Positions 45,712 through 54,286 of a stretch of DNA of 64,000 nt are shown here, piece after piece. Source of the DNA: Armatimonadota bacterium (GTDB lineage Bacteria; Armatimonadota; Fimbriimonadia; Fimbriimonadales; Fimbriimonadaceae); assembly GCA_018268355.1 (NCBI GenBank), contig JAFDWR010000004.1, positions 186,404-250,403 of the forward strand, given 5' to 3'. The position numbers and the translations under genes are program-made. Under the pieces are notes generated by a model. It saw nothing but the letters and a program-made list of their open reading frames with translations. It was not told where the DNA came from and searched no databases. Positions within the stretch are counted from its first letter, which is position 1, and every line of letters begins with the position of its first letter.

Positions 45712-47634
45712 ATGCCAAGAGCGACGCGAGCGATCAGGAACGAACACGTGCAGGAGCAGCTCAAGACGCTGCCCGACGCGCCGGGTTGCTACATCTACCG
45801 CGACGAAAAAGGCAACGTCCTGTATGTCGGCAAGGCGATCGTCCTCAAGAACCGCGTCCGTAGCTACTTCCAGCCGTCGGCCAAGCACGGCCCGCGCATC
45901 GAACGGCTCGTCCACCGGGTGCGCGACATCGAGACGATTGTGGTCGACTCGGAAATCGAGGCACTCGTGCTCGAGTGCAACCTGATCAAGCGCTATCGAC
46001 CGCCGTTCAACGTCCGGATGCGCGACGACAAGAGCTATCCGTACATCGTCATCACGAACGAGGCTTACCCGCGCGTGCTCTTCACCCGCCAGGTGCGAAA
46101 GGACAAGGCGAAGTACTTCGGCCCGTACCCGAACTCGTATGCGGTGCGCGACACGCTCCAGCTGCTCCACAAGGTCTTCCCGCTGATCCCATGCGGCAAG
46201 AGCTTCAGCGGTGATCCGGTCCAACGGCCATGCCTCTACTACCACCTCGGCCAGTGCCTCGCGCCGTGTGCGGGCCTTGCCGATCGCAGCGAATACGACC
46301 AGGTGCTCGACCGGGTGGGCCGCTTCCTTGGGGGCAAGGAAACCACCCTCATCGAGGAGATGACCGCCGAGATGGAAGCCGCCGCTGAGGAGCTCGATTT
46401 TGAACTTGCGGCGAAGCGTCGGGACCAGATTCGCGCGCTTGAATCCGTCCAGCAGCGGCAGAAGGTGAACTCCGCCGAGGGCGTGGACCAAGACGTCGTT
46501 GCCCTCGTCAAGGACGAGCGTGGAGCGGCAATCCAAATGCTCTACATTCGCGGTGGAAAGCTGCTCGGCCAGAAGCAGTTCGCGCTCGACGGGGCGAAGG
46601 AAGTCACTGCGGGCGAGGCGATTGGCGAGTTCCTGAAGCAGTACTACAACGAGTCGCCCGAGGTCCCGCGCGAAGTTCTGCTGCCGATCGAGATTGAGGA
46701 GCGGCAGATCGTCCAGTCGTGGTTGCGCCAACAGCGCGGTTCGGCGGTCACTCTGGAGGTGCCCCAGGGCGGCGAAAAGCTGCGCCTCGTTGAGATGGCA
46801 GCGGCGAACGCTGAGCAGAGCCTTGCGGTGATGGCCAGCGAGCTTGCGGCACGGCAGGATTGGGCCGATCAGGCGATGGATCAGCTGCAAGAGTCGCTCG
46901 CATTGCCATCGCCGCCGCTGCGGGTGGAGGGCTACGACATTTCGAACATCCAAGGCACGTCGCCGGTGAGCTCGATGGTCGTGGTCGAGAATGGCGATGC
47001 GGCGAAGGACCAATACCGCCGGTTCAAGATTCGCTATCACCCGGAGAGCCCGAACGACTTTGCGATGATGCACGAGACGATCTTCCGGCGTCTCAAGGCC
47101 GCGATTGACGGCGACGAGAAGTTCAGCAAGCTGCCCGACCTGATCATGATCGACGGCGGCAAGGGTCAGCTCGGGGCCGCACTGAAGGCGCGCGATGAGC
47201 TTGGGCTATCGATCCCGATGGTCGGCCTTGCCAAGCGGCTTGAGCTGATTTACGTCCCGATGGAGATCTCACGCAACGCCGACGTCGAGCCGATGCGCGA
47301 GTATTCCTATGACCGGCCCGCGCCGGTGGAATACGCCTTCCGCGAGGTTGAGCTGCCGCTCCAGTCGCCGGGGCTATTGCTCCTGCGCAAGCTGCGTGAC
47401 GAGGCCCACCGGTTCGCCCTCACCTATCACCGCAAGCTGCGCGACAAGCGCACGGGCGGCTCCGTGCTCGACGAGATTCCCGGCATTGGTCCGCGCAGGA
47501 AGCGGCTGCTCCTTCGCACGTTTGGCTCGGTTGAGGCAATCCGACGCTCAACGATTGACGACATCGCGGCGGTGCCGACGATGACCAAGGCCCAAGCGAC
47601 CCGGATTCACGAGTTCCTTAACGACTCGACTTAA
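45712..47634 (+). CDS. uvrC: excinuclease ABC subunit C
   Basis: This is a 640-residue protein with the standard UvrC architecture. The N-terminal GIY-YIG nuclease is [22 protein letters not shown]; the Cys-containing linker is [14 protein letters not shown]; the UVR motif is near 200-240; the RNase H-like C-terminal nuclease has [11 protein letters not shown] and MIDGGKGQL; helix-hairpin-helix segments close the protein ([14 protein letters not shown]). It makes both incisions in nucleotide excision repair. GAAAGGAACGG precedes the ATG. Its last 17 bp overlap convergent uvrA. Confidence 0.97.
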
Positions 47635-50593
47635 CCTTCGTCTTGCGCGGCTCGGCGACCTTCGCGACCGCCTTGGCCTCATGGACAACGAGCGGCGTGG
47701 CCGGTGCCTGCTTGGCAAAGATCTCGCGCAGGAACGCACCCGTCGAGGACTGCGGTTCGCTCGCGACCTGCTCGGGCGTGCCCCAAGCGATGATCTGGCC
47801 GCCGCGATGGCCGCCCTCGGGGCCGAGGTCGACGACGGTGTCGGCGGTCTTGATCACGTCAAGGTTGTGCTCGATAACGACCACGGTGTTGCCTTGGTCC
47901 ACGAGTTGGTGGAGGACTTCCAGGAGTCGGTTCACGTCCTCAAAGTGGAGGCCGGTGGTGGGTTCGTCGAGGATGTAAATCGTCCGGCCCGTCGAGCGCT
48001 TGCTGAGCTCGGTCGCGAGCTTCACGCGCTGGGCTTCGCCGCCCGAAAGCGTGGTCGCGGGTTGCCCGAGCCGAATGTAACCCAGGCCGACCTGTTGCAG
48101 CGTGATCAGCTTGCGGAAGATCTTCGGAATCGGACGGAAGAACTCCACCGCCTCGTCGATCGTCATAGCGAGCACTTCGGCGATGTTCTTGCCTTTATAG
48201 CGGACCTCGAGCGTCTCGCGGTTGTACCGCTTGCCCTTACAGACTTCGCACGGCACATAGACGTCGGGAAGGAAGACCATCTCGATCTTCAACACGCCGT
48301 CGCCTCGGCAGGCCTCGCACCGACCGCCCTTCACGTTGAAGCTGAACCGTCCGTTCTTGTATCCGCGCTGCTTGGCGTCGGGAGTGAGCGCGAAGAGGTC
48401 GCGGATCATGTCGAAGGTGCCGGTGTAGGTGGCGGGGTTCGACCGCGGCGTACGACCGATCGGGGATTGGTCGATGTCGATCACCTTGTCGATCTCGTCG
48501 ATGCCTTCGATGGAGTCGTGGGGCTCCCAGACCGAACGGGTGCCGTAAGTTTCGTACATCAGGCGCGGGAAGAGGGTGTCCTGGATCAAGGTGGACTTGC
48601 CCGAACCCGAAACGCCGGTGATGCAGACGAACTGGCCGAGCGGGATGCGCAGGTCAACGCCTTTGAGGTTGTGCCCACGGGCATTGCGCACCACGATCTC
48701 GCCCCGCGTGATGCCGCGCCGGGTCTCGGGCATCGGGACCGACTTCCGACCGCTGAGATACTGCGCGGTGATCGCCTCCGACTTCAGGAACTGCTCGACG
48801 GTGCCTTGGGCGACGACTTGGCCACCATGCTCGCCCGCGCCGGGTCCGAGTTCGAGCAAGTGGTCTGCCGAGAGCATCGTCTCTTCGTCGTGCTCGACCA
48901 CGACGACGGTGTTGCCGAGGTCGCGGAGGCGGCAAAGCGTCTCGATCAGCTTGCGGTTGTCGCGCTGGTGAAGCCCAATGCTCGGCTCGTCGAGGATGTA
49001 AAGGCATCCCATGAGCCCCGAGCCGATCTGGGTGGCAAGGCGGATGCGCTGGGCCTCGCCGCCGCTCAGGGTGCGGGCGTTTCGGTCGAGGGTGAGGTAG
49101 CCAAGGCCAACGTCGCTGAGGAAGTTCAGCCGCTCGATGACCTCCTTGATCGCGCGCTCGCCGATCGTCATCTGGCGGGCGTTGAGCTTCGCGGGCAAGG
49201 CGCGGAAGAAGTCGAGGCTGGTCTCGATGGAGTCGTTGACCACGTCGCTCATGTCGCGGTCGGCGAGGGTGACGCTCAGCGATTCGGGCTTGAGTCGCTT
49301 GCCGCGACAGGTCGGACAAGGCTTCGTCGACATGTATTGGGCGAGGTCATTCTTCACCCACTCGCTCTCGGTCTCCTCGTGCCTCTTGCGGAGCGAGGCG
49401 AGGACGCCCCGCCATTCGGTCTTGAACGACCGCTCCGACTTGCCGTATTTCATGACGACGGTGATCGGCTCGGGGAGGCCCTGCCAAACCGCCTTCATCC
49501 CTTCCTCGGGAATCTCTCGCACTGGCTTCGAGGCATCAAAGCCCATCACGCGGCCAACCGCATCGAGCATCTCGGGCCACCAGTCCTTCACTTCGCCCGA
49601 CTTGTACACGAAGGGGAGGATCGCGCCCGAGCGGAGCGGCTTTGAGGGGTCCGGACAGACGAGTTCGGGGTCAAATTCGGTCTTGGTACCCAGACCAGTA
49701 CAGTCCGGACATGCGCCATACGGCGAGTTGAACGAGAACATCCGTGGCTCGAGCGACGGCAGCGAGTAGCCGCACACCGGACAAGCGAACGACTCGGAGA
49801 AGAGCGCATCCTGGCTGCCATCGGGCCCTTCTTCGCCGACGGGGATCAGCGGGGGACGCTCGGCTCCCTCGGGAAGGACATAGCTCAAGGTCACGAGCCC
49901 ATTGCCCATCTTCAGCGCGGCCTCAACCGAATCGCTGAGGCGTCGCTCCAAGCCTTCCTTCACGACGATTCGGTCGACAACGACCTCAATCGTGTGCTGC
50001 TTGTAGCGGTCCATCGGGACGTCTTCGTCCACCTCATACAAGATGCCGTCGACGCGGACGCGGACATAGCCCGCCTTCGCGACGTCTTGGAGCACTTGCT
50101 TGTACTCGCCCTTTCGACCTCGGATGACGGGTGCAAGCACTTGGAGCTTGGTCCCCACCGGCAGTTGGAGGGCAGCCTCGACAATCTGGTCGGTGCTTTG
50201 GCGTTCGATGGGTCCGTGGCCGTTGGGACAGTTCGGGATTCCTGCGCGGGCAAAGAGGATGCGCAGGTAGTCGTAAATCTCAGTGACGGTGCCGACGGTC
50301 GAGCGGGGGTTCTTGCTCGCGCTCTTTTGGTCGATGGAAACCGCAGGGGAAAGGCCCTCAATGTGGTCGACGTCGGGCTTGTCCATCTGGCCGAGGAACT
50401 GGCGCGCGTAGGCGCTCAGCGACTCCACGTAGCGGCGTTGGCCTTCGGCGTAGATCGTGTCGAACGCAAGGCTGGACTTTCCGCTGCCGCTCAGCCCGGT
50501 GACGACCACGAGCTTGTCGCGGGGAATCTCAACCGTGATGTTCTTGAGGTTGTTTTCCCTCGCTCCGACAACGATGATCTTCTCTTGCGGCAT
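47618..50593 (-). CDS. uvrA: excinuclease ABC subunit A
   Basis: This is a 991-residue ABC-type damage-recognition ATPase. The first Walker A is [20 protein letters not shown], the second [20 protein letters not shown]. Zinc modules show [11 protein letters not shown]...CPDCTG and [14 protein letters not shown]...[12 protein letters not shown] signatures are [10 protein letters not shown] and [10 protein letters not shown]. The C-terminal 25 residues form a basic tail. A 20-bp palindrome (50613-50632) lies 20 bp upstream of the start and could be an operator. UvrA and uvrC converge with a short overlap. Confidence 0.98.
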
Positions 50594-50612
50594 GGTGGTC
50601 TTCGGCCCTTAT

Positions 50613-50632
50613 TGGTAGACGCAAGACTACCA
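50613..50632. promoter_or_regulatory. palindrome TGGTAG-N8-CTACCA upstream of uvrA
   Basis: This is an inverted repeat of 6-bp arms with 8-bp spacing, spanning a possible -10 (TAGTCT on the minus strand). The spacing equals that of E. coli LexA boxes (CTGT-N8-ACAG) though the arms differ. A second, overlapping inverted pair GTAGAC (50616) / GTCTAC (50645) is also present. Confidence 0.45.
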
Positions 50633-50678
50633 GATCGACCCCATTGTCTACGAACAATCGCCAGAAAGTGTCCCGATC

Positions 50679-52067
50679 CTAGGCCAGCTCGGCAAAACCT
50701 TCCGCTTCGACCACTGCCGTCGCCCGCTCCAGCTGGATGCGCATCGCTTCGGGACCGGGGGCACCGAACGAGTTGCGGCGGCGGACGCTCTCCTCGGGTT
50801 GAAGGAGGACGAGGTCGGCCTCATTTGCCTCGGGGATGCAGTGGTGGAGGTCGGCCATTGTCGCGTCTTCTAGGCTGATTCCCGATTCCTCGCAATGCCG
50901 CACGAACTTGGCGACCTGCTCAAACGCCTCGCGGAACGGCACGCCACGCGCGGCGAGCGCATCGGCGAGGTCGGTGGCGGTGGAGAAGTCGCCGCGTACG
51001 GCTTCGCGCATTCGGTCGGTGTGCCAGTTCGCAGTTTCGAGCATCAGGTGGCTGAGCCGGATCGCGTCGCGGGTGAGCTTGAGCGACTCGAAGAGCGGCG
51101 GCTTATCGTCCTGGGTGTCGCGGTTGTAGCCGAGGGGCAGACCCTTCAGCGCGGTGGCGAGGGCGACATAGTTGCCAATCGCCTTTCCTGCCCGACCGCG
51201 AATCAGCTCCGCCATGTCGGGGTTGCGCTTCTGCGGCAGAACCGAGGAGCCGGTGGTGACCGATTCGCTGAGGGTGACAAAGCCGTACTCGCGGCTCGAC
51301 CAAAGCACAAGCTCTTGGCTCAGCCGGGAAAGGTCGATCATCGTTTGTGCGCAGAGGTGGAGCGCGTCAAGGATGTAGCTGCGGTCGCTCGTGGCGTCGA
51401 GCGCGTTCGGGATCGGGGCGGTGAAGCCAAGCTCGTCCGACGTTTGATCCCGATTGATCGGGAAGCTGGTTCCCGCGAGGACGTTCGCGCCGAGAGGCGA
51501 GAAGTTGGCGAGAAGGGTGAGCCGCTCGGCCCGGTAGCCGTGGCGTTGCAAGGCCCAGAAGTGGGCGAGCAGGTGGAATCCGAGGGTGACCGGCTGGGCG
51601 CGCTGGGTGTGGGTGTAGCCCGGCATCAGATCGTCCTTGTGCTTGTCGGCGAGGCTGATGAGGGTGCGCTGGAGCTTCTTCAGGAGGTCAAGGTGGCGAA
51701 GCAGCTCGTTGTGCAGGAAAAGCCGGGTATCGGTCGCAATTTGGTCGTTGCGGCTGCGGGCGGTGTTCAGTTTGCCGGCGACGTCGCCAACGATCTCGCG
51801 GAGGCGGACTTCGACCGCGGTGTGGATGTCCTCAACGTCTTTGGGCAGACGGTCCGGACCTTCTTCGTGGATCTGTTCAAGTCCCTTAATGAGAAGGTTG
51901 GACTCTTCGCGCGAGATGATGCCGGTGTCGCCGAGCATACGGGCATGGGCCACGCTCCCAATCACGTCCTCTTGCCAAAACGTGAGGTCCGAATGCACGG
52001 ATTGGCTGAACCGTGCGACGAGCTGATTGGTGTCTTCTTCGAATCCTGCGCCCCAGAGCGTTCGCAT
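50679..52067 (-). CDS. argH: argininosuccinate lyase
   Basis: This is a 462-residue fumarase-superfamily enzyme. The signature GSSVLPQKRNPD (catalytic Ser loop), KLNTARSRNDQIATDTRLF and MPGYTHTQRAQPVTLG are intact. It splits argininosuccinate to arginine and fumarate. It is 21 bp downstream of the rhomboid-like gene and may be co-transcribed, though a TACGCT box 6 nt before the ATG could also start a leaderless mRNA. No argG or argF is nearby. Confidence 0.96.
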   Translation of the reverse strand: MRTLWGAGFEEDTNQLVARFSQSVHSDLTFWQEDVIGSVAHARMLGDTGIISREESNLLIKGLEQIHEEGPDRLPKDVEDIHTAVEVRLREIVGDVAGKLNTARSRNDQIATDTRLFLHNELLRHLDLLKKLQRTLISLADKHKDDLMPGYTHTQRAQPVTLGFHLLAHFWALQRHGYRAERLTLLANFSPLGANVLAGTSFPINRDQTSDELGFTAPIPNALDATSDRSYILDALHLCAQTMIDLSRLSQELVLWSSREYGFVTLSESVTTGSSVLPQKRNPDMAELIRGRAGKAIGNYVALATALKGLPLGYNRDTQDDKPPLFESLKLTRDAIRLSHLMLETANWHTDRMREAVRGDFSTATDLADALAARGVPFREAFEQVAKFVRHCEESGISLEDATMADLHHCIPEANEADLVLLQPEESVRRRNSFGAPGPEAMRIQLERATAVVEAEGFAELA

Positions 52068-52088
52068 GGATTCAGCGTACCCGCGCGA

Positions 52089-52850
52089 CTAGCGGTCGTC
52101 GCCCTCGTCGAGGCTGGATTCGAACAGCTTGCGGAGTCGCTCACGCTCTTCGCGCTCTTTCTCGCGGCGGCGAGCCTCCTCGTAGTACGATTCGGGCATC
52201 CGGTCCTTCTTCGGCGCGACTCGGGTCCGCTCGGAGGTCTCTCCGACTCTGAACTTCACGAACACATCCGAGAACCAATAGGCGAGACCCACCGGAACAA
52301 TAGCAAAAACGCCCAATACCGGGCCCTTGTACATGTCGAGAAAGGGCAGGTAATGCAGCAGCGTAAAGAGGCCAAGGATGAACTCGATCTGGATGTAGCT
52401 GGTTCCGAAGAGGCAGGTTTGCGCCCTTTTGTGCTGGCCCACATAGAGGCCAAACAGGGTGAGGGTGACGGGGCATGCCGCGCTGAGGACGAACGGGATC
52501 TCCAACAGCTTGGCACCGAGGACCATGAAGAACGCGACCGCCATCATGCAGCCGAAGTAGTACAGCATCGTCCTCAGGGTTCCAAACTGGCTCTCGACCG
52601 TGGTCAAGAAGTACATCGTCAGGAACAACGTCAGGATCAGATTCGCTAGGCCTGTTCCGCCCCCTGGAACCGCGAGAGGATAGGTGAGGAGTCCCCAAAG
52701 CTGAGAGAAGTCCGTCGGAAAGGAGAGGAATGCGGACACCTTTCCGCTCGTGATCGTCGTTCCGAAGTACGACAGCACGAGCAGAATGAAGAGCCCAAGC
52801 GAGAATCGAGTCGTCTTGAGCGAGAAGTTTGGTAAAAGGCTCGACCGCAT
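52089..52850 (-). CDS. rhomboid-like membrane protein without catalytic residues
   Basis: This is a 253-residue protein with six likely transmembrane helices and a charged C-terminal tail (EEARRREKEREERERLRK). The segment LWGLLTYPLAVPG...LANLILTLFLTMYFLTTVESQFGT follows the rhomboid pattern WRLLTYPFLH...LLFNMLALWFFGPPLE. Where active rhomboids have GxSG the sequence is SAACPVTLTLFGLY, and the later catalytic His is absent. It is probably a pseudoprotease of the iRhom/derlin kind, perhaps a membrane chaperone. It lies between MFS and argH genes with gaps of 11 and 21 bp. Confidence 0.6.
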   Translation of the reverse strand: MRSSLLPNFSLKTTRFSLGLFILLVLSYFGTTITSGKVSAFLSFPTDFSQLWGLLTYPLAVPGGGTGLANLILTLFLTMYFLTTVESQFGTLRTMLYYFGCMMAVAFFMVLGAKLLEIPFVLSAACPVTLTLFGLYVGQHKRAQTCLFGTSYIQIEFILGLFTLLHYLPFLDMYKGPVLGVFAIVPVGLAYWFSDVFVKFRVGETSERTRVAPKKDRMPESYYEEARRREKEREERERLRKLFESSLDEGDDR

Positions 52851-52861
52851 CCTAGTAAGAA

Positions 52862-54154
52862 TTATGGGGCACTCATCCTTTCCGCAACACCCTCGGTTGA
52901 TGCCTTAGGTTCAGATTCAGCCTGAATTGCCCGCACATTCCGGTACGGCGCGTCCAGAAAGCCGATCAATCCGCTCGCGATCATGCCGACACCCATGAGG
53001 ATGAACGTCGATTCGAGGCCCAACGACTTGACAAGCAACCCGCCCAGGGCACTGCCAATCGGCACCGCCGCCGCGCCCAACATGTTCATCGCCGCATAGA
53101 AGCGACCGCGGAACTCATCGGGAATCGTGTGCTGAAGCCAGATGTTGATCGGCAGGTCGGTGATCGGGATCGCGATGCCACACAGGGCATTCCAGAGCAC
53201 AAACAGCCAGATGCTGCGCGAGAACGCCATGAACCCGACAAACAGGCCGACCATCGCCAACCCTATGGCAAATGACCACGTCGGACGACGGATGTTCAGC
53301 TTCGCGACAAGCGGTGTCGCCACGAGCATGGCGGCGAAGAACGAGAACTCGAACCAGGCGAGAGTCGAGGGCTTGCCACCAAACCAAAGGTCGTTCGACG
53401 CGATGTAGACCACGAAAAACGGGGCGACAAAGAGTCGGAACCAGAAGATCAGTGCGATGAGCACGACGAGCTCGCGGCGACCCTTGATGAACCGAAGGCC
53501 GTCCTTGAAGTCCTGCCACGGGTGGGCCTCATGGAGGTCCTCACGGTCCGGGATGACGGGCGGAACGAGCAGCAAGAAGCCAGCGGAGGCGAGGAACGAA
53601 ACCGCGTTCACCCCGAAAACGAGCACGAAGAACAGCTTCGGCTGGAACTCCCAGATGCTCGCGATGGCAGAGGCCGAGATTGCGAGTCCGAAGAGCGGAG
53701 CGAGGTTGTTCGTGGTTTGGGTGAGCGTCGTCGCGGTGGGGATCGCTTCCTTGGGCACGAGGTTCGGCAAGACCGCGTTCAGCGCGGGTCGGAAGAAGCA
53801 CCGCACCGAGCTCAACAAGAACGGCATCACGAGCAGCACCCAAAGCGGAGGCTTCGCGACGCCAAAGCTCACGAGCACGGCGACGATCAAGCCAAGCGCG
53901 CACAGCAGGTCGCTCCAAATGAGGATCTTCTTGCGGTCAACACGGTCGGCGAGAACGCCGGCGAATCCGGAAAAGAGGATGAACGGAATTGCCTCCAGCG
54001 CACCAACGACACCGACCATCGAGTCGTTGCCCGTCACCTTCTTCACCATGAACATGAAGCTGGTGTAGTAAAGGGCATCGCCGATGATCGAGATCGCCTG
54101 GCCGAGCCAGAGATTGCGATAGGCAGGGATGCGTAAAACGTCGCGGAAGGTCAA
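52862..54154 (-). CDS. MefA-like major facilitator superfamily exporter
   Basis: This is a 430-residue protein with about 12 helices. NLWLGQAISIIGDALYY, FSGFAGVLADRVDRKKILIWSDL (MFS loop 2-3 motif) and the repeat halves are typical of the H+ antiporter-3 group that includes macrolide exporters such as MefA. Start: TTG 54154, with AGGAG 8 nt upstream. That AGGAG is paired with an upstream complement in the leader (54155-54247), which also holds a 6-codon ORF. The substrate is unknown, but the leader layout suggests an antibiotic acting on the ribosome. Confidence 0.85.
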   Translation of the reverse strand: MTFRDVLRIPAYRNLWLGQAISIIGDALYYTSFMFMVKKVTGNDSMVGVVGALEAIPFILFSGFAGVLADRVDRKKILIWSDLLCALGLIVAVLVSFGVAKPPLWVLLVMPFLLSSVRCFFRPALNAVLPNLVPKEAIPTATTLTQTTNNLAPLFGLAISASAIASIWEFQPKLFFVLVFGVNAVSFLASAGFLLLVPPVIPDREDLHEAHPWQDFKDGLRFIKGRRELVVLIALIFWFRLFVAPFFVVYIASNDLWFGGKPSTLAWFEFSFFAAMLVATPLVAKLNIRRPTWSFAIGLAMVGLFVGFMAFSRSIWLFVLWNALCGIAIPITDLPINIWLQHTIPDEFRGRFYAAMNMLGAAAVPIGSALGGLLVKSLGLESTFILMGVGMIASGLIGFLDAPYRNVRAIQAESEPKASTEGVAERMSAP

Positions 54155-54247
54155 GATTCAAACTCCTATGGGTAGGTCAGGGCGGTGCCGAAGGTCGAAG
54201 AAGCGGCACGAAAGAAAGCCGCCGAGCTAGGAGTTACGGAGAATCAT
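54155..54247 (-). promoter_or_regulatory. leader RNA with sequestered Shine-Dalgarno (candidate translational attenuator)
   Basis: In RNA sense, AACUCCUA (54235-54228) is fully complementary to UAGGAGUU (54168-54161), the ribosome-binding site of the MFS gene. Between them are two further nested stems: GGCGG/CCGCC (54223-54219 with 54185-54181) and UGCCG/CGGCA (54208-54204 with 54190-54186). The outer 8-bp helix would close the start of the exporter. The 5' strand of that helix is also the end of a short ORF, so ribosome stalling there would open it. Confidence 0.6.
54227..54247 (-). CDS. putative leader peptide MILRNS
   Basis: ATG ATT CTC CGT AAC TCC TAG encodes six residues. The last codons AAC TCC TA(G) are exactly the anti-Shine-Dalgarno strand of the outer helix before the MFS gene. 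Length and position match leader peptides of erm, cat and mef attenuators. It starts 9 nt after the -10 box, so its mRNA 5' end is very short and it has no ribosome-binding site. Confidence 0.48.
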   Translation of the reverse strand: MILRNS

Positions 54248-54256
54248 AGTTCGACA

Positions 54257-54286
54257 ATGATATCAGGTTGGATCGATGTTTTTCAA
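54257..54286 (-). promoter_or_regulatory. sigma-70-type promoter of the MFS leader
   Basis: On the minus strand TTGAAA (54286-54281), an 18-bp spacer and TATCAT (54262-54257) form a good housekeeping promoter. It would start transcription 3-5 nt before the leader ORF. Confidence 0.65.

Follow-up and report, generated by a model that had tools for sequence, protein, structure and literature searches.

The window, the whole stretch of 64,000 nucleotides analysed here, carries on its minus strand a gene for an MFS exporter that begins with a TTG codon (Table 1). The protein lies over the cut-off for both Pfam MFS_1 and MFS_3 and below the curated NCBIfam cut-offs for 2A0121, MefA, EntS, MefB and Tap; by these profile scores, it appears to be distantly related to the Mef, Tap and EntS exporters within the MFS. 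No relatives were found in the viral contigs searched. The exporter is possibly co-transcribed with the rhomboid-like ORF that follows it after 11 nt. These two ORFs, an argininosuccinate-lyase-like ORF and a UvrA-like ORF are co-directional and separated by short gaps (47618–54154, minus strand), so the leader described below might control more than the exporter.

The exporter is preceded by an extended −10 promoter with a spacer of 18 nt between the TTGAAA and TATCAT hexamers. This promoter is the sole σ70-like match on either strand of a 600-nt region, in which shuffled sequences give 0.2 ± 0.5 matches. After a gap of 9 nt, TATCAT is followed by a mini-ORF of six codons, ATGATTCTCCGTAACTCCTAG (ATG-ATT-CTC-CGT-AAC-TCC-TAG), the end of which lies 72 nt from the exporter TTG. 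The mini-ORF has no Shine–Dalgarno (SD) sequence of its own and, with its start 9 nt past the −10 box, would be essentially leaderless. Its end contains AACTCCTA (hereafter the anti-SD), which is exactly complementary to TAGGAGTT, the ribosome-binding site (RBS) of the exporter. The promoter, the ORF and the pairing had been read from the DNA in the original prediction, which did not remark on the leaderless position of the ORF or on its missing SD: the promoter and the ORF placed 9 nt after it are exact to the base on the minus strand, and the complementarity claimed between the last eight bases of the ORF and the exporter RBS is present. A search of the source genome gave no 16S match; in relatives, the 16S rRNA has an intact 3′ end, which reads CACCTCCTT. 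A scan of the 600-nt region gave 0 terminator-like sites between the leader ORF and the exporter, and a reading of the leader as a transcription attenuator was rejected on this result. An Rfam scan for described leader or riboswitch families gave no match at E ≤ 1.

Table 1. Leader elements, exporter gene and neighbouring ORF in the window.
Feature	Position	Strand	Basis
−35 hexamer TTGAAA	54286-54281	(-)	sequence; promoter scan 10/12
Extended −10 TATCAT, with TG at 54265-54264	54262-54257	(-)	sequence and promoter scan
Mini-ORF ATGATTCTCCGTAACTCCTAG (MILRNS; ATG from 54247, stop TAG 54229-54227)	54247-54227	(-)	sequence; orthologue counterparts of 3–9 codons
GATTC at mini-ORF start, paired with 54159-54155	54245-54241	(-)	MFE fold
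Anti-SD AACTCCTA, +13 to +20, within mini-ORF end	54235-54228	(-)	8-bp RBS complement; covariation, swap test
Two nested stems, anti-SD to SD (54225-54218:54183-54177 and 54209-54204:54190-54185)	54225..54177	(-)	MFE fold
Exporter RBS/SD TAGGAGTT, 8 nt before TTG	54168-54161	(-)	sequence; 16S tail of relatives
GAATC between SD and TTG, partner of 54245-54241	54159-54155	(-)	MFE fold
MFS exporter, 430 aa, TTG start, MefA/Tap/EntS-like branch	52862..54154	(-)	Pfam, NCBIfam
253-aa ORF, rhomboid-like by eye	52089..52850	(-)	ORF list

The minimum free energy (MFE) fold of the window leader consists of the anti-SD:SD helix, the two further nested stems that had been proposed to lie between its strands, and an extra helix of 5 bp, GATTC:GAATC, which in the predicted structure places the start of the mini-ORF beside that of the exporter. 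The folding energy is unremarkable (z = −1.36; 20/200 shuffled sequences fold equally well). Taken by itself, this value sits well with chance, that is, with a functionless short ORF and an 8-bp match that happen to fall in a GC-rich 5′ region. As the leader fold alone is not unusually stable, the case for more than chance rests on comparison.

The closest hits are metagenome-assembled genomes of the Fimbriimonadaceae. For the comparison, exporter homologues and their upstream DNA were gathered from 85 Fimbriimonadaceae genomes and from 291 genomes of the Armatimonadota, many of which are draft assemblies or metagenome-assembled genomes; among the genomes returned by the genome search, none was a same-genus relative of the source genome. 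Leaders were scored by a strict rule (−10 score of at least 6, spacing of 8–11, an ATG or GTG ORF of 2–9 codons and an ungapped RBS helix score of at least 20). A rule was used to assign main start codons, so that some of them (L109 and L059/L064/L066) may be incorrect; for L109, the start initially chosen is probably the wrong one. The strict rule picked out 12/19 close, 5/27 middle and 0/11 distant orthologues, counts that are fully rule-based, against 14/613 control genes, the rate at which leaders arise by chance (Fisher p = 5.5e-14 for close orthologues versus controls). Within a 464-kb sample of the source genome (391 genes), the exporter has the strongest strict mini-ORF/anti-SD match of all, and none of the other MFS, ABC-F and KsgA/Erm-type genes found in the same genome has a comparable leader. 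L155 (the same gene as L163), the sole rule-passing case in its set, pairs at a place where there is no SD-like sequence and is probably a chance match.

A quick maximum-likelihood tree (83 rows) groups most of the leaders in a single exporter clade with an SH-aLRT of 93; of its 36 rows, 20 have paired leaders and 8 have a mini-ORF with weak pairing. By the strict rule alone, and so with fully rule-based counts, the mini-ORF is found in 23/34 and the helix in 19/34 rows of this clade, compared with 5/43 and 4/43 among other MFS homologues. A sister pair outside the clade, L090/L091, also has the leader. Clade members with a mini-ORF but little SD pairing include L003, L106 and L059/L064/L066, and L013, L010, L103 and L115 have no leader. 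Elsewhere in the phylum, in families f2, f5, f10, f12 and f13, no convincing leader was seen before exporter homologues. One of the f2 homologues, L144 (G051:C3), has a TATAAT shortly before its own GTG start and no mini-ORF; judged by this spacing, that exporter appears to be leaderless itself, the same gene under a different expression logic. Clade-wide conservation disfavours chance already at this stage, and together with the other family-wide tests (orthologue counts, swap, positions, tree and covariation) it leaves that explanation barely credible. Among the outcomes named beforehand as speaking against the prediction was that the ORF or the pairing would not be kept in relatives; this did not occur.

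The orthologues of other genera share 36–50% protein identity and have the same layout in different sequence. Examples, each with −10 box, gap in nucleotides and leader peptide, are L005 (TATACT, 8, MLAN; pairing CCTTCCGGG:TTCGGAAGG), L100 (TAGAAT, 9, MRTTFLL; GACTTTCCTT:AAGGAAAGTT), L110 (CATAAT, 9, MKQPQLL; AACTTCTTT:AAAGAAGTT), L117 (TAGAAT, 9, MRR; CTTCCGGG:CCCGGAAG) and L078 (CATAGT, 10, MRMVLL; GAATGGTTCT:AGAACCGTTC), every peptide being followed directly by a stop codon. Common to these leaders are a −10 box 8–10 nt before an ORF of 3–9 codons and an anti-SD at about +9 to +25 from the ORF start. Several variations on the layout were seen. L059, L064 and L066 keep an MKL[I/T/L]RTR ORF with R-X-R at its end but barely pair with the presumed RBS, which may reflect a wrongly assigned main start or a different mechanism. 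In L147 (G013:C42), tandem CACATCC repeats extend up to the exporter promoter region. L101, L104–L107 and L110 have a conserved hairpin directly 3′ of the mini-stop (for example, GCAGC-CGCCACC-GCTGC), the loop of which is complementary to a downstream, nearly invariant GGTGG; this complementarity suggests an alternative pairing or a pseudoknot.

The RBS-sequestering helix covaries. Leaders paired with their own SD region score higher than with swapped ones (mean 22.6 versus 18.0, z = 5.3, 0/20,000 permutations, with leaders partly picked by eye). For six related leaders (g20), RNAalifold returned three helices, one of them anti-SD:SD and another a hairpin that immediately follows the stop codon; this hairpin, the equivalent of the nested stems in the window leader, covaries. 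In this alignment, 7/19 pairs have changed on both sides, and 86% of cells are paired, compared with 78.3 ± 1.9% for shuffled sequences and 40–55% when the alignment is slid by 1–3 columns. The sister leaders L065 and L073 illustrate such exchange: CGTTCT:AGAACG in the pair is replaced by CGTGTT:AACACG. Folding and covariation over orthologous leaders had been proposed as a check on the prediction, and the helix comes through it, with a minority of leaders that pair weakly. The proposed class, a short leader ORF with an SD-sequestering hairpin, is thus strongly supported by family-wide conservation and covariation. On this comparative evidence, the leader is real and conserved and is most probably of the uORF translational attenuation kind, unusual in that it would be leaderless, very short and anchored at its start.

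The anchoring is seen in the spacing of the elements. The best −10 box ends 8–10 nt before the mini-start in 23/26 orthologous leaders, which implies a 5′ UTR of about 0–4 nt. The centre of the anti-SD lies 17.3 ± 4.4 nt from the mini-start and is more scattered relative to the mini-stop (s.d. 7.5); like the −10 spacing, these positions come from leaders partly picked by eye. The anti-SD is found inside the ORF in some leaders and just behind it in others. When a ribosome occupies a start codon, its downstream edge lies near +16 to +18 (PMC12121999), so a ribosome anywhere on the ORF would cover the anti-SD in part or in full. SD use is low in the Fimbriimonadaceae (a 4-mer core precedes 19% of control genes versus 8.6% background); an SD-led exporter with a sequestered RBS is therefore itself unusual there. 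In the sample of the source genome, a start codon falls 7–11 nt past a good −10 box in 15/391 genes, and in 2 when the position is shifted by 100 nt; these 15 are probably leaderless genes, here in a member of the Armatimonadota.

The peptides, by contrast with the spacing, are not conserved between leaders, save for Arg or Lys at codon 2, which occurs in 14/26 leaders compared with a background of 17% (p = 2.4e-5). Arg at this codon is spelled in five ways (CGA, CGC, CGT, AGA and AGG), which indicates selection on the amino acid and thereby points to translation of the mini-ORF. The Leu-rich ends of several leaders are the CTT/CTC anti-SD sequence as translated. In L098 and L099, the mini-ORF and the bases directly after it are identical and the stretch from −10 to ATG has diverged.

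A basic second codon could also be the mark of a starvation attenuator, in which ribosomes pause on Arg or Lys codons when charged tRNA is low and the transporter moves a metabolite; the argininosuccinate-lyase-like ORF two genes downstream of the exporter would suit this, as would the 14 leaders with basic codon 2. However, the other 12/26 have no basic residue there, several (MLAN, MIL and MTGTVLL) have none at all, no leader contains a run of a single amino acid and the protein belongs to drug-efflux families. We therefore regard a starvation signal as very improbable.

The original prediction had drawn an analogy with erm, cat and mef-type genes and called the exporter MefA-like. A macrolide-specific device, in the sense of MefAL or ErmDL, would depend on erythromycin-like drugs that stall ribosomes on a particular nascent peptide. 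The exporter does lie in the MefA-like branch, and MKLIRTR, MRLILTIR and MRLL resemble arrest peptides of the MRLR type. Yet the R/K-X-R/K motif occurs only in the three MKLxRTR leaders, is not above its frequency in shuffled peptides (P = 0.92) and is absent from MILRNS, and the peptides differ between genera. MefAL and msrDL, moreover, act on transcription termination, and the scan found no terminator here. The exporter itself scores 113.9 bits against NCBIfam Mef(A), for which the cut-off is 675 bits. The macrolide analogy is thus not borne out, and a macrolide-specific arrest device is quite improbable. The pause on MILRNS that the prediction had envisaged is not supported either: as this peptide is not conserved, pausing that depends on its sequence is unlikely to explain the leaders in general.

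A third alternative takes the constancy of the start region at face value. Here, each passage of a ribosome would open the helix and exporter output would track the rate of leaderless initiation by 70S ribosomes, the signal being any condition that favours leaderless over SD-led initiation and not drug stalling. The −10-to-ATG spacing and the absent SD are indeed the most constant features of the leaders, their peptides are not conserved, and leaderless and SD-led initiation are known to be differently regulated (PMC9031893). On the other side, the preference for Arg or Lys at codon 2 suggests a role for elongation on particular early residues, and the helix would not stay open for long if the ribosome passed fast. 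We consider such a gauge of leaderless translation unlikely.

The best explanation of the exporter leader, to which we assign a probability of roughly 0.7 from the genomic comparisons, is a leaderless uORF that acts as a translational attenuator. We infer the following course of events. The transcript would start 0–4 nt before the mini-ORF, where 70S ribosomes would initiate without an SD. In an undisturbed cell, the ribosome would quickly traverse the 3–9 codons and depart, the 5′ end would refold, and pairing of the anti-SD (about +9 to +25) with the exporter RBS would shut the exporter. Ribosomes lingering at the start, in the interior or at the stop of the mini-ORF would mask the anti-SD with their footprint, leaving the RBS free and allowing the exporter to be made. 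Computed SD release agrees in direction with this switch, although not for every leader: the mean unpaired probability of the SD rises modestly in the window leader, from 0.27 when free to 0.45–0.47 with a ribosome on the ORF, and more clearly in L110, from 0.13 to 0.75 on ribosome occupancy.

The most likely physiological trigger of this attenuator would be a ribosome-targeting compound that is removed by the exporter; that such compounds induce it we infer from the kind of gene controlled. Because the distance from start to anti-SD is kept and the peptide is not conserved, any drug by which early elongation or termination is slowed would be expected to elicit the response, which would not be confined to a single pairing of drug and peptide. 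We therefore favour a generic sensor of translation slowdown, similar to toiL, which fits the leaders better than a macrolide-specific device similar to MefAL. The broader proposition is that the family has a class of leaderless uORF switches reduced to as little as an ATG and two further codons (MRR and MIL), with selection on geometry relative to the start codon and not on the peptide, so that the exporter reports slowed ribosomes in general. It has in our estimate an even chance of being right; if it is, drugs would be sensed by leaderless 70S initiation.

If the attenuator is true, uORF-based sensing of translation inhibitors would be extended to the Armatimonadota, and leaderless initiation would be joined with drug-responsive attenuation, usually separate subjects. 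In addition, the leaders amount to about 25 natural variants of one switch in which the peptide varies and the geometry is constant, making possible a direct test of whether a specific arrest peptide is required at all in leaders of this type. Full-text searches of the literature, which were non-exhaustive, returned neither a leaderless drug-type attenuator nor any such system in the Armatimonadota, in line with the statement of the original prediction that no description from this phylum was known.

In leaders of the ermC/cat type, the ORF is preceded by an SD and encodes a drug-specific arrest peptide, on which the stalled ribosome opens an SD-sequestering hairpin. The exporter leader resembles them in having a leader ORF before a resistance-type gene and the SD of that gene sequestered in a hairpin, but there is no SD before the mini-ORF, no arrest peptide was recognized, and the ORF is very short, with the anti-SD inside it or immediately behind. 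Attenuation of erm is also described in PMC5118997. In the mefA/msrD operon, MefAL (MTASMRLR) and msrDL (MYLIFM) control transcription anti-termination at an intrinsic terminator, and at the stop codon of msrDL, a leader of six codons, a ribosome can become trapped (PMC10314930). Both precede resistance genes, one of which is distantly related to our exporter, and they resemble our leader in that a very short leader peptide controls, or here would control, a MefA-type exporter or ABC-F; the differences are that MefAL and msrDL act at a terminator, none of which was found before our exporter, and that the peptides do not match.

In Escherichia coli, the toiL uORF of topAI-yjhQ pairs with the downstream RBS, as is predicted for our leaders, and this RBS is released by a ribosome lingering anywhere on the uORF; toiL senses at least five classes of drug, and multi-drug sensing has been proposed for it (PMC12121999). 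However, an SD for the uORF and a conserved N terminus set toiL apart, as does its control of a toxin–antitoxin operon, whereas the Fimbriimonadaceae leader would be leaderless, has 3–9 codons and an unconserved peptide, and precedes the exporter that it would control. Mycobacteria translate leaderless small ORFs (PMC4633059), and in them leaderless short polycysteine ORFs attenuate the downstream gene and sense cysteine (Canestrari 2020, cited in PMC9031893). These are alike in that a leaderless short ORF at the 5′ end attenuates a downstream gene. They differ in their runs of cysteine codons, of which the leaders described here have none; here, an RBS-sequestering helix lies before an exporter, in the Armatimonadota.
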